DNA from: Deltaproteobacteria bacterium
GTDB taxonomy: Bacteria > Myxococcota_A > UBA796 > JAFGLY01
Direction of reading: 5' to 3'
DNA length: 53,219 nt
Assembly: GCA_016927815.1 (NCBI GenBank)
Contig: JAFGLY010000164.1
Coordinates: 1 to 53,219 of the forward strand
The notes beneath the pieces are model-generated. The model did no database searches and was not told the origin of the DNA. It saw only the letters and a program-made list of their open reading frames with translations. The translations under genes and the position numbers were made by a program. Below, piece after piece: positions 1,500 through 38,966 of this stretch; positions within the stretch are counted from its first letter, which is position 1, and the number at the start of each line of letters is the position of its first letter.

Positions 1500-1805
1500 C
1501 TGCTCCTTCAGCCGTCCCGAGCCTGGCGAGCGGACCCCTCGAGGGCGATCCGGACCCTGTGGCAGGAACTCGCCCGCGAGGAGAACACCGGCCTGCGAGC
1601 CCGGGTGCGGGTCGTGCTCTTCCCCGCAGCCGGTCCGGTGCTCCTGCGGGAGCGCTTCGAGAGCCGCACGGACACCAAGCCCTTCGACCGGGTGTTCACC
1701 CTCGGCCACACGACCGGGCTCATCGTCACCTTCGCCGGGATGCCGCTCGTGCTGGGATCTTTGTGGTCCTCCCTTCCGATGGCGTTCATGACCGCCATGC
1801 CGTAG
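1500..1805 (+). pseudogene. Fragment of a membrane methyltransferase-like (ICMT-type) gene
   Basis: In a different frame from the preceding lipoprotein fragment, this stretch encodes TLWQELAREENTGLRARVRV, a hydrophobic segment, the motif RTDTKPFDRVF, and a second hydrophobic segment GLIVTFAGMPLVLGSLW, then stops at 1805. The order of motifs resembles bacterial isoprenylcysteine carboxyl methyltransferase-like membrane proteins. It has no start of its own, and the catalytic C-terminal part is missing. The junction at about 1480-1500 joins it directly to the lipoprotein remnant. The family call comes from general pattern memory and is uncertain. From 1806 to 2014 I recognise no gene. Confidence 0.35.
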
Positions 1806-2015
1806 GACGGAGGGGCTTCGGCGCCGAGGAGGTCGGGCAGGCCCGACCCGGCCCAGAGGGCCGGGTGGACGGCGAGATCGTGAAGGCGGTGTCGTCGGTG
1901 ATGGGTCGGTCCAGCCGGGCGGTGGCGCTGGCCGATGGCTGCTGGCGGATCGCCTCGCGCGCCGCGGGGATGACCCCGGCCACGGTCCGGGCGAGCGGCC
2001 GTCTAAAGAAATAAT

Positions 2016-34883: not shown

Positions 34884-35798
34884 CTACAGGTCCGGGTACA
34901 GCTCGCGCATCGCCAGCTTGGGTCTCCGGTCCAAGGTGAACAGGCCCCAGTGCTTCTCCGGCTCGTCCGGATCCGGGGAACCCTTCCACGGCTCGTCGAA
35001 GGCCTCGAACACGAAGGTCAGGACCCGGTGCTCCTCGCTCCAGCGAGAGAGCTCCCGGTAGTACCGGGCCTGGAGGAGTGGGCTGGCGTTGCGCGGGTCG
35101 ATGCCCCTCCCGCTGGAGCGCGTGGTCCAGCCCGCCTCGGTGATCACCACCGGCTTGCCGGGGTAGCGCTCCGCGACCCTCCGCCAGTCGCCGTCGGTGG
35201 TGCCGATGGCCTCGTCGATGGAGCGGTACTCCCACACCGGGTAGGTGTGCACCGACAGGAAGTCCAACTCTGCCGCCAGGGGGGCGAGCTTGCCCAGCCA
35301 GGGCACGTGGTTCTCGCAGAAGGTCACCGGCTGGGTGACGGCGGCCCGGATGCGGCCCGCGTGGTGGATGACCCGGTCCACGGGGACCAGGTGGTCCGTC
35401 CAATCGACGGTGGCTTCGTTTCCTGCGGACACCGAGGCCACGATGCCGGGGTATCGGCGAGCCAGGGCGATCGCACGGTCCACTTCCTCTTCGTTGGCGG
35501 CCGCGTTGGCCGCGAGTCGCGCCGGGCTGTGCACGCCGCCCCACGGGCAGGCCGGATTGCTCACCTCGGCGGCGAGGTACGCACCGAGCATCACCCGCAG
35601 CGGCAGGCCCAGGCGCTCGATGGCCGAGAGCACCAGTTCGGCATGGGGCCCGGCGTCGTAGAGTCGAAGCAGGCGCCAGTGCCGGACGAGGATCCATAGG
35701 TCCTCCTCGACCTGGGCGGGAGAGGGGAAGATCCCCTCCTCGGGGCTCTGGCCCTCCCGGTAGCCCGAGTAGCAGATCCCCTGGAACTCACTCGGCAA
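34884..35798 (-). CDS. GH17-family beta-1,3-glucanase or transglycosylase 1
   Basis: A 304-residue TIM-barrel protein of GH17. The acid/base Glu128 lies in VSAGNEATVDW and the nucleophile Glu221 in VVITEAGWTTR. Family stretches GICYSGYREGQ, LLRLYDAGPHAELVL and FVFEAFDEPWKG are present. It has no signal peptide, so it appears cytoplasmic. The start is a TTG at 35798, inside the end of the upstream GH17 gene, with GGAG upstream; the overlap suggests coupled translation. It is closely similar in motif order to the lipoprotein GH17 at 36753, pointing to duplication. GH17 enzymes either hydrolyse or transglycosylate beta-1,3-glucans. Confidence 0.85.
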   Translation of the reverse strand: MPSEFQGICYSGYREGQSPEEGIFPSPAQVEEDLWILVRHWRLLRLYDAGPHAELVLSAIERLGLPLRVMLGAYLAAEVSNPACPWGGVHSPARLAANAAANEEEVDRAIALARRYPGIVASVSAGNEATVDWTDHLVPVDRVIHHAGRIRAAVTQPVTFCENHVPWLGKLAPLAAELDFLSVHTYPVWEYRSIDEAIGTTDGDWRRVAERYPGKPVVITEAGWTTRSSGRGIDPRNASPLLQARYYRELSRWSEEHRVLTFVFEAFDEPWKGSPDPDEPEKHWGLFTLDRRPKLAMRELYPDL

Positions 35799-36705
35799 TC
35801 TTCAGGCTCCCGCGGGAGTCCCACAGGCCCCAGTACGCGCCGCAGTCCCCCTCCGGGCCGAACTTCCAGGCCTCGTCGAAGGCGGAGAACCAGAACATGT
35901 CCATCTCGAGCCGGTCGGCCCAGGTGATGAGGTTCAGGGCGTAGAGTGCCATGTTCCGCAGCGAGGGCACCGCGTCGCCCACCGGGCTCCCAGCGCTGGG
36001 CCACCCGGTCTCGGCGATGAGGATGGGCCGGCCCGCCGACACGGCCTGCACCCGGCGCACCATCTCCTCCGCATAGGCGGGCGACCGCTCCAGGGGGACC
36101 TTCTCCCAGAACGGGTAGCAGTTGATGGGCAGGAAGTCGCAAGCGTCCACCAGGGCCGGGTGCTGGGGGAACAGGAAGTAGGCGTCCACGGTGGCCACGG
36201 GTACCCCGGGTAGGGCCGCCTTCACCTGGTGGAGCAGACCCACGAGCTCCTCCTCGGACATCTCCCCCCGGAGCAGTACCTCGTTGCCCACCGCGACCCG
36301 GTCGGCGTGGCCGGCCCGGGCGACCTCGACGACGGCGGCGATCTCCGCGGCGTTCTTCTCCCGGTCCTCGCCGATCCATGCCCCCACGAGGGTGCGGAGG
36401 CCCCACTCCCGGGCGAGGCGGGGGGCATGCTCGTTGCCCTCGATGCACGAGAAGGTACGGATCCACCGGGTATAGGGAGCAATGCGCGCCAGACGGGCGC
36501 GCACCTGATCCTCGGAGAGCACGGACTGGAGCTCGGGCCCCTGGCCCTCCTGGTAGGCGCTGAAGCACAGGCCGTGCAGCTTGAGGTCGAGCAGCTTGCG
36601 GAGGCGGGCGAGGAGCTCGGCAGTGGGGAGATCCTGGAACGACAGGGTGCTGTCGGCCCGGAAGCCGGCCATCCACTCGGCGCCCTGGATGTGGAGCACG
36701 CCCAT
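35788..36705 (-). CDS. GH17-like glucanase or transglycosylase 2
   Basis: A 305-residue protein with GH17 features but more divergent than its two neighbours. It shows LHGLCFSAYQEGQGP, RVAVGNEVLLRGEMS (acid/base Glu), INCYPFWEKVP, PILIAETGWPSAGSPVG (nucleophile Glu) and FWFSAFDEAWK. No signal peptide is present. AGGAAGG lies upstream of the ATG. The motif set with WPSAG after the nucleophile is closer to fungal/plant-type GH17 spelling than the other two copies. It overlaps the downstream GH17 by 11 bp. Confidence 0.83.
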   Translation of the reverse strand: MGVLHIQGAEWMAGFRADSTLSFQDLPTAELLARLRKLLDLKLHGLCFSAYQEGQGPELQSVLSEDQVRARLARIAPYTRWIRTFSCIEGNEHAPRLAREWGLRTLVGAWIGEDREKNAAEIAAVVEVARAGHADRVAVGNEVLLRGEMSEEELVGLLHQVKAALPGVPVATVDAYFLFPQHPALVDACDFLPINCYPFWEKVPLERSPAYAEEMVRRVQAVSAGRPILIAETGWPSAGSPVGDAVPSLRNMALYALNLITWADRLEMDMFWFSAFDEAWKFGPEGDCGAYWGLWDSRGSLKIAE

Positions 36706-36752
36706 GGTTCCTTCCTGGGATCGGATCGCGGTTCCCTAACGCTCGGGTCCGC

Positions 36753-37793
36753 CTACCGCGCGAGACCCGGGTACAGCTCGCGCACGACCCGCTTGGGCTT
36801 CCGATCGACCGTGAACAGGCCCCAGTGCTTCTCGGCGCCCAGGGGGTCGTCGGGATTGCCCTTCCAGTCCTCGTCGAAGGCCTCGAACCAGAAGGTGGTC
36901 GTGTTCGTCTGCGCGGCCCAGGCGGTGAGCTCGCGGTAGTAGCGGGCCTGGCTCTCCTCGCTGGCGCGCTCGCCGAACTCCGAGGCGACCGTGGCCCAGC
37001 CCGCCTCGCCGATGGCCAGGGGAACCCCGGGGAGCGCAGCCCGGACCGCGGCCAGGTTCTCCAAGGTGTAGGGCATGGCCTGGTCCACGTCGCGGCCCTC
37101 CCAGGCCGGATAGGTGTGGACCAGGGCCAGATCGACCACCGGTCCCAGGGCATCGGCGTGCTCCACCCAGGCCGCGTAGTTGTCCGCGGTGGTCACCGGA
37201 ACATCGACCGCCTCCTTCACCTGCCGGAGGTAGCCTGCCATGGTGCCGATGGGGACCAGGTGGTCGTTCCAGGTGACCAGGGCCTCGTTGCCCACGTTCA
37301 CCGCCACCACCACCTGGGAGTGGGCCCGGGCCAGGGCGACGACCCGCGTCACCTCCGCGCGGTTGCGCGCGGCCTGGGCGGACAGCACCTCGGGGGGCAC
37401 GGGCTCGATGACCCACTCGCAACCCTCGTGGTTGCTCACCTCGCCTTCGAGCCACGCCCCGAGCATCACCTTCACCGGCAGCCCGCCCTCCGCGATGACT
37501 TCGAGGACGTCGGCCGAGTGGGGCCCGGCGTCGTACAGGCGGATGAGCCCGAAGTTGCCGTCCCGGGTGAGCAGGTCCAGGTCCTCGCGGATCTGGTCCC
37601 GCGTGGGATAGGCGCCGCCATCGCCCCGGTCGGGGTGCTGGCCGGACCGGTAGCCCGAGTAGGCGAGCCCGAGGGAGAAGCCCGCGAGGCGGGCCTCGAG
37701 CGGCTGGACGACGGGGGAGGGCCCGGGCTTGGCGGCGGGCGACGCGCCGGGTGGCCCACAGGCGACGAGGAACGCGAGGAAGGGGATGGACAT
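36753..37793 (-). CDS. GH17-family glucanase lipoprotein 3
   Basis: A 346-residue lipoprotein (MSIPFLAFLVAC, Cys12) with a Pro/Ala-rich linker and a GH17 domain. Visible stretches are GLAYSGYRSGQHP, LIRLYDAGPHSADVL, VAVNVGNEALVTW (acid/base Glu), VPLAIGEAGWATV (nucleophile Glu), and FWFEAFDEDWKG. It is the membrane-anchored first gene of the three-gene GH17 set. The frame stays open upstream to 37994, through a likely transposase remnant. The ATG at 37793 is chosen because the signal peptide starts there; no good ribosome binding site precedes it. A weak TATCCT lies 6 bp before the ATG. Confidence 0.82.
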   Translation of the reverse strand: MSIPFLAFLVACGPPGASPAAKPGPSPVVQPLEARLAGFSLGLAYSGYRSGQHPDRGDGGAYPTRDQIREDLDLLTRDGNFGLIRLYDAGPHSADVLEVIAEGGLPVKVMLGAWLEGEVSNHEGCEWVIEPVPPEVLSAQAARNRAEVTRVVALARAHSQVVVAVNVGNEALVTWNDHLVPIGTMAGYLRQVKEAVDVPVTTADNYAAWVEHADALGPVVDLALVHTYPAWEGRDVDQAMPYTLENLAAVRAALPGVPLAIGEAGWATVASEFGERASEESQARYYRELTAWAAQTNTTTFWFEAFDEDWKGNPDDPLGAEKHWGLFTVDRKPKRVVRELYPGLAR

Positions 37794-37837
37794 GCGACAG
37801 GATAGCACGGCGAGGACGCTGCCTCCGCGCTGGGGCA

Positions 37838-37958
37838 TAGGCACGATGAAGGAAGGGTCGAGGGCCACGCGTCGCCGGACGGCGAGGCGCCGCGCATCGC
37901 CCGGGAACAGGGGGGTGCGCTCCTCGGAGGCGAGTGTGAGGTGGTGCCACGCGGTCAT
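37838..37958 (-). pseudogene. Probable RAYT (REP-associated Y1 transposase) N-terminal remnant
   Basis: An ATG at 37958 encodes MTAWHHLTLASEERTPLFPG and then DARRLAVRRRVA, with about 85 % G/C at third positions, so it looks truly coding. The WHHLTLA and LFPGDARR elements resemble the N-terminus of REP-associated tyrosine transposases of the IS200-like Y1 class. The DDH-H catalytic motif and the tyrosine are missing, as the sequence runs in frame straight into the GH17 lipoprotein. It is preceded, on its 5' side, by the palindromic repeats at 37971-38118, as expected for a RAYT with its REP sequences. The family call is tentative. Confidence 0.4.
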
Positions 37959-37970
37959 GGGAACTCCAGC

Positions 37971-38118
37971 GGAAGAAACTCGGGAGGTAAGCACTTACCC
38001 ACGGTGTTGTTTCCTCTCTGGAGGTAGTAACTCGTCGGGTAGAGCCTTACCCCTGGAATTACTTCCTCTACAGAGGAAGGAACGATTGGGGTAACCGACT
38101 ACCCCCGGACTTGCTTCC
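37971..38118. repeat. Three tandem 52-bp units with nested inverted repeats
   Basis: Units begin near 37971, 38022 and 38074. Each has an outer pair of arms and an inner pair of arms. Unit A: GGAAGAAAC/GTTGTTTCC outside (7 of 9 paired) and GGTAAG/CTTACC inside (37986-37991, 37994-37999). Unit B: AGGTAGTAA/TTACTTCCT and GGGTA/TACCC (38037-38041, 38048-38052). Unit C: GGAAGGAA/TTGCTTCC and GGGGTA/TACCCC (38088-38093, 38100-38105). The inner arms differ between units but stay complementary, which supports selection for a stem. The joint between B and C is also palindromic (TTCCTCT/AGAGGAA). Next to a RAYT-like remnant, these are best read as REP/REPIN-like elements. Confidence 0.75.
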
Positions 38119-38145
38119 GCGGCGCTCCACTCCGGGACGCGCCGC
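38119..38145 (-). terminator. Perfect 7-bp hairpin at the end of the TrmH-type gene
   Basis: GCGGCGC (38119-38125) pairs with GCGCCGC (38139-38145) across a 13-base loop, starting at the stop codon of the methyltransferase gene on the minus strand. No T-run follows. It may end the methyltransferase transcript, or be a further hairpin of the adjacent repeat array, since on the minus strand it is directly preceded by GTAG. Confidence 0.4.
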
Positions 38146-38966
38146 TACACCCGGCCCCTCCGTCCCGCCTCCTGGCGGACCTTCTCGAAGATCAGGACCC
38201 CTGCGGCCACCGAGAGGTTGAGCGACTCGAGATCGCCCGCGAGCGGGATGCCGGCGAGTGCGTCGCAGCGCTTGCGCAATGGTGGGGTGAGCCCCTTGTC
38301 CTCGCCGCCGAGCACGAGCGCCAGCGGGCCGGTGAGATCCAGGCTCCAGGGCGGCGCACCGTCCGAATCGGCGCCCACGATCCGCACCCCCCGGCGGCGG
38401 AGCGTGGCGAGGCAGGAGGAGATCCCCTCCCGGACCACGGGAACCGCCTCCGCCGCGCCCATGGCCACGCGCTGGACCACGGCCGTGACGCCCTTGCCGC
38501 GCACGGTGGGCACCACCACGCCGTGCACGCCTCCACCCAGCGCGCTGCGCAGCACGGCGCCCAGGTTGTGCTCGTACTGGGGCTCGTCTATGAGCACCAG
38601 GAAGGGATCCTCCCCTTGGCACTCGATTTGGTCGAGGAGGTCCCGGAAGGTGAGGTCCGGCAGGGGTTCGGCCCACGCGATCACGCCGTTGTGCACGCCC
38701 GTCACGCTCGCCCGATCGAGGGACGGCCGGGGCACCGATTCGACGGGTGCGCCGCTCCTGGCGGCCAGGTCGAGGATTTCCGCCACCTTGTCCTCGCGCC
38801 GGGCATGGTCGTCCAGGTGGATCCGGACCACCCGTCGCCGGGCACGCCGAAGGCACTCCAGGACCGGGTTGCGTCCCTCGAGGACGTCGAGGCCCGGGGG
38901 AGTCCGGAGCGTGGGCTGCCCCGGAGAAGGGCCGTGGGGTCGGCTCCAGGGGCGACCAGGCTTCAT
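38145..38966 (-). CDS. TrmH/SpoU-family RNA 2'-O-methyltransferase (RlmB-like)
   Basis: A 273-residue SPOUT-class enzyme. An N-terminal substrate-binding domain ([15 protein letters not shown]) is followed by a knotted catalytic domain with [21 protein letters not shown] (motif 1, with Glu-His instead of the more usual Asp-Pro-x-N), [20 protein letters not shown] (motif 2) and [20 protein letters not shown] (motif 3). It methylates 2'-OH of a guanosine in rRNA or tRNA; RlmB-type 23S rRNA modification is the most likely role. The ATG at 38966 has GGGAGG upstream and overlaps the stop of the YgiQ gene (ATGA). Confidence 0.85.

Follow-up and report, generated by a model that had tools for sequence, protein, structure and literature searches.

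A three-hairpin array beside a RAYT pseudogene in a Deltaproteobacteria genome, probably a decayed copy of a REPtron-like element

Introduction

RAYTs and REP sequences serve as a model both for a transposase becoming a resident gene and for the origin of genomic repeats. The locus described here raises the question of whether three regularly spaced hairpins lying beside a RAYT-like reading frame belong to such a system, and whether their insertion contributed to the GH17 lipoprotein gene that follows on the same strand. A first-pass annotation had proposed both, suggesting a new REP/REPIN family that might have supplied the 5' region of the GH17 operon. In the following, the window denotes the whole stretch of DNA analyzed, 53,219 nucleotides in length; its relevant features are collected in Table 1.

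Results

Structure of the hairpin array

The three 52-bp units with nested inverted repeats described in the first-pass annotation are present as 44-nt hairpins at positions 37971-38118. Read directly from the sequence, their starts are exactly 52 bp apart in head-to-tail orientation, and each unit forms a two-tier structure with an outer stem of about 10 pairs and an inner stem of 5-6 pairs that is offset by about 3 bases and has inner arms of the GGGTA(A/G)/TTACCC type. On the minus strand a short GCGGCG...CGCCGC hairpin precedes the three 44-nt hairpins, which a short linker separates from the ATG at 37958. The complete element, consisting of left end, short left hairpin, three-hairpin array, RAYT 5' remnant and RAYT 3' coding fragment, is larger than the span of 37838-38118 originally noted, and its detectable borders differ from it at both ends (Table 1).

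Table 1. Positions of the element, its parts and related features in the window
Feature	Position	Strand	Basis
GH17 lipoprotein gene, outside the element	36753-37838	-	Pfam Glyco_hydro_17 1.9e-7; homologue starts
Whole detectable element	37857-38148 (about)	-	blastn with intact C35 element; three-copy alignment
RAYT pseudogene, a 3' fragment fused in frame behind about 25 N-terminal codons	37857-37958	-	tblastn, blastn, junction read
Hairpin unit 3 (adjoining RAYT start), 44 nt	37971-38014	-	sequence
Hairpin unit 2, 44 nt	38023-38066	-	sequence
Hairpin unit 1 (farthest from RAYT start), 44 nt	38075-38118	-	sequence
Left end of element with short GCGGCG...CGCCGC hairpin	38120-38148	-	three-copy alignment; sequence
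Second RAYT fragment, internally deleted	1800-1872	-	HPALWAGSGLPDLLGAEAPPSYG; 96% over 53 nt versus intact RAYT, plus 31 nt of its 3' part

The RNA folding check on the 161-nt array (37965-38125) bore out its structure, with a fold of -78.6 kcal/mol compared to a mean of -51.0 kcal/mol for dinucleotide shuffles (z -6.6; 0 of 200 shuffles as good), while folding with DNA parameters gave a z of -3.5. Units 1 and 3 are able to pair with each other, so that the whole array constitutes a single long imperfect palindrome and its opposite strand is consequently also matched by the intact copy described below (68%). The inner arms are clearly complementary, 83% of the cells being paired across the window units and the genome copies compared to 25-54% when the alignment was slid. 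The earlier observation that they vary together found only slight support: the score for three units in three copies was reached by 26 of 500 shuffles as well as by some slid controls, and structural proof from within-genome covariation is weak. There were no Rfam matches around the array at E values up to 5, and a direct-repeat finder called no repeat family in the region because the units are too divergent.

RAYT remnants in the window

The minus-strand frame adjoining the array, which had been reported to start as a RAYT-like N-terminus, is indeed a deleted RAYT gene. Residues 1-32 counted from the ATG at 37958-37956 were 84% identical in tblastn to the N-terminus of the full-length RAYT-like protein on contig C35 of the same genome, and the 3' fragment reads LAVRRRVALD. 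About 650 bp are missing internally, with the junction at a 7-bp microhomology, CCTCGCC (37887-37881). As CCTCGCC is found at both sides of the joint in the intact gene, the gap probably represents a deletion between short repeats. The second RAYT fragment in the window (1800-1872) has no array beside it.

Copies of the element in the same genome

The search for further copies covered the genome's 4.0 Mb in 216 contigs and yielded two additional ungapped full-length copies of the 161-bp array, one on C111 (87%) and one on C35 (83%). With three loci the array is thus of low copy number in this genome, although such array counts, here and below, are lower bounds in fragmented assemblies. The three-copy alignment placed the left border at the same point in all copies, and from there similarity runs via the array to the RAYT start codon. 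On C111 just the first bases of the RAYT ORF are recognizable, while on C35 an intact 277-aa ORF (MTAWHHLTLASEERAPLFPGDARRL...) with HUH and tyrosine motifs starts a few bases past the array; this is a full-length RAYT gene beside an array, as the first-pass annotation had proposed searching for. In blastn, the intact C35 element matched the window at 38151-37862 (85%) and 37887-37857 (97%). The C35 locus showed neither a downstream array nor a right-end hairpin or TnpB gene.

At the left border, GTAG is present in two of the three copies (window 38145-38148; C35, L003:1478-1481) and AGAG in the third. In these two copies the upstream gene, a SpoU methylase in the window and a POR-family gene on C35, ends with the TAG of this border as its stop codon. 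The GTAG could reflect a target preference or chance.

The genome also carries a second intact RAYT of the family at G000:C95:4439-5420 (L028, L123; 50% identity). This gene has its own three-unit array (L028), unrelated in sequence to the window array, and there are partial array copies on C167 and, right at the contig end, on C164, which makes copy numbers lower bounds.

The RAYT protein family

The 277-aa C35 protein alone had no significant Pfam, NCBIfam or PDB match. Members of its family were detected in 21 of 58 related genomes, with up to 15 matches each, frequently with stops or truncations, and in 27 of the 284 genomes of the phylum, mostly of the same order; its named relatives are uncultured Deltaproteobacteria/Myxococcota MAGs. 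RAYT copies within a genome are 40-50% identical. In the family alignment D46, H48 and H50 (D-x-H-x-H) are invariant, Q103 is near-invariant and so is Y99 (at least 90% conserved), the latter within a Y-x3-Q-x2-[HK]H motif. The RAYT-type Y-x3-NP motif is absent from the alignment, as is a conserved W immediately preceding the tyrosine (the W94/Q95 guide-recognition region).

Eight of the 24 members matched Pfam Y1_Tnp (PF01797) below an E value of 1 (best 2.5e-5), and HTH_23 was matched by eight of 24, the HTH being C-terminal. The PF01797 profile reached some members of the family and found nothing at 1e-3 in the window's own genome, a null result that taken alone would have led to the RAYT identity being wrongly dismissed. 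Searched against PDB sequences, the family profile matched IS200/IS605 TnpA chains of the IS608/ISDra2 type (best E 0.007). An AlphaFold model of a relative (pLDDT 96, pTM 0.92) had its best Foldseek match in the PDB, and the sole one below 1e-3, in 4ER8 (E 5e-4, probability 1.00), the structure of E. coli RAYT (TnpA-REP) in complex with a REP hairpin. Aligned to E. coli RayT by hhalign, the family was colinear (HUH on HUH, tyrosine on tyrosine, followed by a W/S stretch) with E values of 0.017-0.026, compared to 0.45 and a short C-terminal alignment for an unrelated protein. The hhalign probability of 2-3% was low, so that the link to RAYTs rests on motifs and fold. By these, the full protein belongs to a divergent Y1 HUH family of RAYT type with a C-terminal HTH.

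Arrays upstream of RAYT genes in relatives

The fold test included 39 distinct members with enough upstream DNA. Their 220 nt upstream had a mean fold z of -2.7. The mean was -0.01 for distant windows from the same contigs (Mann-Whitney p 8e-11), -0.7 for the DNA downstream and -0.2 within the gene. At least two long hairpins were present upstream of 19 of the 39 members (49%) versus 18% of the distant windows, leaving about half of the members without a detectable pair; some members have no array. The geometry of the arrays is often kept despite differing sequence, with spans of about 42-48 nt and periods of about 49-52 bp (e.g. L034, L033, L051, L055, L028 and L038). A DNA search with the 161-bp window array found no match in 57 relatives, and the arrays are thus genome-specific. 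Overall, array similarity did not correlate with RAYT similarity (Mantel rho -0.05), while in a post hoc test near-unit-length array matches were higher among closely related RAYTs (2 of 5000 permutations). The bases preceding the hairpins in 13 array types contain no common GTAG. In many relatives a promoter-like TTGCC...TACCCT motif recurs between array and start codon (e.g. L018, L013, L035 and L036).

Dispersed arrays

Genome G044 has eight loci with tandems of the L034-type unit, 3 to 11 units each, the L034 array itself comprising 11, and seven of these eight loci had no RAYT match in the DNA examined. Genome G058 contains about 15 triplets, nearly all intact, with an extra short left hairpin like that of the window copy. 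Many of them share long flanks carrying pieces of another gene (LDCPCCGRHRKW, WAKQLKDAIWDREP; L099, L104, L106, L107 and L108). These fragments had no Pfam match and look like debris of a different transposase. Since the triplets adjoin them, hitchhiking may account for part of the spread in G058. Covariation was present but modest in a set of 14 G058 triplets: 17 of 500 shuffles reached the score, and 90% of the cells were paired, compared to 20-45% after sliding the alignment. Similarity ends at or near the array or element borders both in G044 and in the genome of the window.

The GH17 gene downstream of the element

The minus-strand frame is open from 37994 to 36753, which places the RAYT remnant in frame with the GH17 gene. 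The GH17 homologues L125 and L126 (62-63% identity) begin at a lipoprotein signal peptide and have an in-frame stop 2-3 codons upstream, and the probable start of the window gene is the ATG at 37838. These homologue starts together with the suitable ATG speak against a coding fusion of GH17 and RAYT. The suggestion that the 5' coding sequence of GH17 came with the insertion is therefore not supported, and the in-frame run is best read as a coincidence helped by the coding ancestry of the remnant. No comparable SpoU methylase-GH17 junction, be it by synteny or as an empty site, was present among the GH17 homologues examined. The window contains three GH17-type genes in tandem on this strand (34887-37838).

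Discussion

Origin and spread of the array

The window feature is probably a decayed, non-autonomous copy of a REPtron-like element whose arrays would be spread by the RAYT. In E. coli, TnpA-REP acts on single-stranded REP hairpins by cutting and rejoining them (PMC8266576). In a comparable manner, the RAYT of this family may recognize the single-stranded hairpins of its own array and nick and join them when the DNA is single-stranded, which would spread copies of the array. The window copy would have lost its RAYT by the deletion between short repeats, and the array left behind would be without an enzyme gene of its own. Neither an empty site nor a target duplication nor a polymorphism marking an insertion was caught.

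The main rival explanation sees in the array a leader or operator that regulates the RAYT gene, either because the HTH binds the repeats in double-stranded form or because the hairpins control the mRNA; the dispersed arrays would then be leftovers of lost genes. The location of the arrays 5' of the gene together with the weak folding downstream, the C-terminal HTH of the protein, the spacing of 51-52 bp, which would correspond to about five helical turns, and the RAYT gene start kept in both other copies in the same genome are all consistent with it. The seven G044 array loci without a detectable RAYT remnant in the DNA examined, the 11 units of L034, which exceed the needs of an operator, and the separate promoter-like stretch, read by eye, between array and start codon in many relatives argue against it, and we regard it as unlikely; it is compatible with a role of the array as RAYT substrate, the two not being exclusive. 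Spread of the array by segmental duplication or on other transposons, with no part played by the RAYT, has a somewhat better chance while still being improbable: it would explain the common long flanks with fragments of another gene around the G058 triplets and the resemblance of the window RAYT fragments to recombination debris, but not why similarity ends at or close to the borders of array and element, as it does both in the genome of the window and in G044.

An ordinary IS200/IS605-type insertion sequence with end hairpins repeated by chance is less probable than either of these. Such an origin would account for the Y1 HUH core, the profile matches to IS608/ISDra2-type TnpA, the RAYT fragments scattered across the genome and the Q after the catalytic tyrosine, as in IS200 TnpA (YxENQ, PMC6006769). 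The top fold match is nevertheless TnpA-REP and not an IS TnpA, the protein has about 275 aa with a C-terminal HTH instead of about 150 aa, the C35 locus lacks a visible right-end hairpin or TnpB gene, and RAYT copies within a genome are far from the near-identity of IS copies. Hairpins between two genes are common, and a chance cluster or a transcription terminator might be considered for the window alone. This reading is already refuted by the two further 161-bp copies, next to the folding z of -6.6 and the same geometry in relatives, and has almost no probability left. The preferred reading remains a REPtron-like element with RAYT-mediated spread of its arrays.

The element belongs to a little-described branch of REP/RAYT repeat systems in uncultured myxobacteria-like bacteria. 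More speculatively, the family might form a separate Y1 HUH subclass that standard profiles miss and that occurs largely in uncultured Myxococcota-like bacteria. What spreads in it would be a set of 44-nt two-tier hairpins, either a fixed triplet or a longer tandem, and its RAYT gene would also have moved within genomes, in contrast to the RAYTs known so far, which are domesticated and stationary; we consider this combination possible and somewhat doubtful. The family unites features that have been reported separately, namely a C-terminal HTH, the Y-x3-Q-x2-HH signature and regular hairpin arrays. Its fixed spacing and low copy number make it a simple system for asking what the enzyme recognizes and if the array acts as a substrate for transposition or as a control site.

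Comparison with known systems

The papers searched contain no description of this RAYT family. TnpA-REP/RAYT proteins and REPtrons (E. coli rayT, 4ER8; subclasses 2.2, 2.4, 2.5, 2.7 and 2.8 of PMC6006769) share with it the Y1 HUH core and fold and the hairpin repeats adjacent to the gene; in both, every gene has a repeat type of its own, repeats are dispersed in the absence of the gene as well, and there are several divergent genes per genome. They differ in having Y-x3-NP where this family has Y-x3-Q-x2-HH and an extra C-terminal HTH; here, moreover, there is no conserved GTAG foot, copies are few, and the hairpins are arranged head-to-tail in threes or more, upstream only. Like REP sequences, the palindromic unit adjoins a RAYT gene (C35 and relatives), whereas the 13 array types have no common GT[AG]G at the hairpin foot, and compared to REPs, which are extragenic and often exceed 100 copies per genome, the lower bounds obtained here are 3 loci, about 15 in G058 and 8 in G044. 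A REPtron RAYT has REPs on both sides, while downstream folding is near background in this family. REPINs (PMC3116915) are likewise palindromic units whose dispersal is attributed to a RAYT, but REPINs and BIMEs form inverted pairs instead of direct tandem triplets with a fixed 51-52-bp period. The notion of a new REP/REPIN family therefore stands as far as a RAYT-type gene and palindromic repeats are concerned and does not hold in the strict sense, with hairpins head-to-tail, no GTAG foot and three loci.

Among the other TnpAY1 classes, subclass 2.1 (TIRYT; PMC6006769, PMC3733652) has a similar C-terminal HTH of the HTH_23/HTH_28 kind and has been reported in delta-proteobacteria; it was described without nearby REP-like sequences and has a Y-I-E-L-N-P type motif, in contrast to the different motif and the upstream arrays in many members here. 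Subclass 1.2 (PMC6006769) has the Y-x3-Q-x2-HH signature, but comprises proteins of about 148 aa from Cyanobacteria and Bacteroidetes for which no typical hairpins were reported. Atypical hairpins have been reported with TnpAY1 classes 2.6 and 3 (PMC6006769). Class 3 resembles the present family in the Q after the catalytic tyrosine, and in having atypical hairpins, which lie near the gene and in many copies in its genome, and differs in its 178-aa size, CnGA foot, occurrence mainly in Planctomycetes and Acidobacteria and published Y-x4-Q spacing. IS200/IS605 insertion sequences have hairpins at the left and right ends and transpose precisely; the three copies of the present element define a common left end and no right end. 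Taken together, the element works like a RAYT/REP system, presumably including mobilization by the RAYT, while departing from REPs and REPINs in its lack of a GTAG foot, inverted pairs, two-sided flanking and high copy number.
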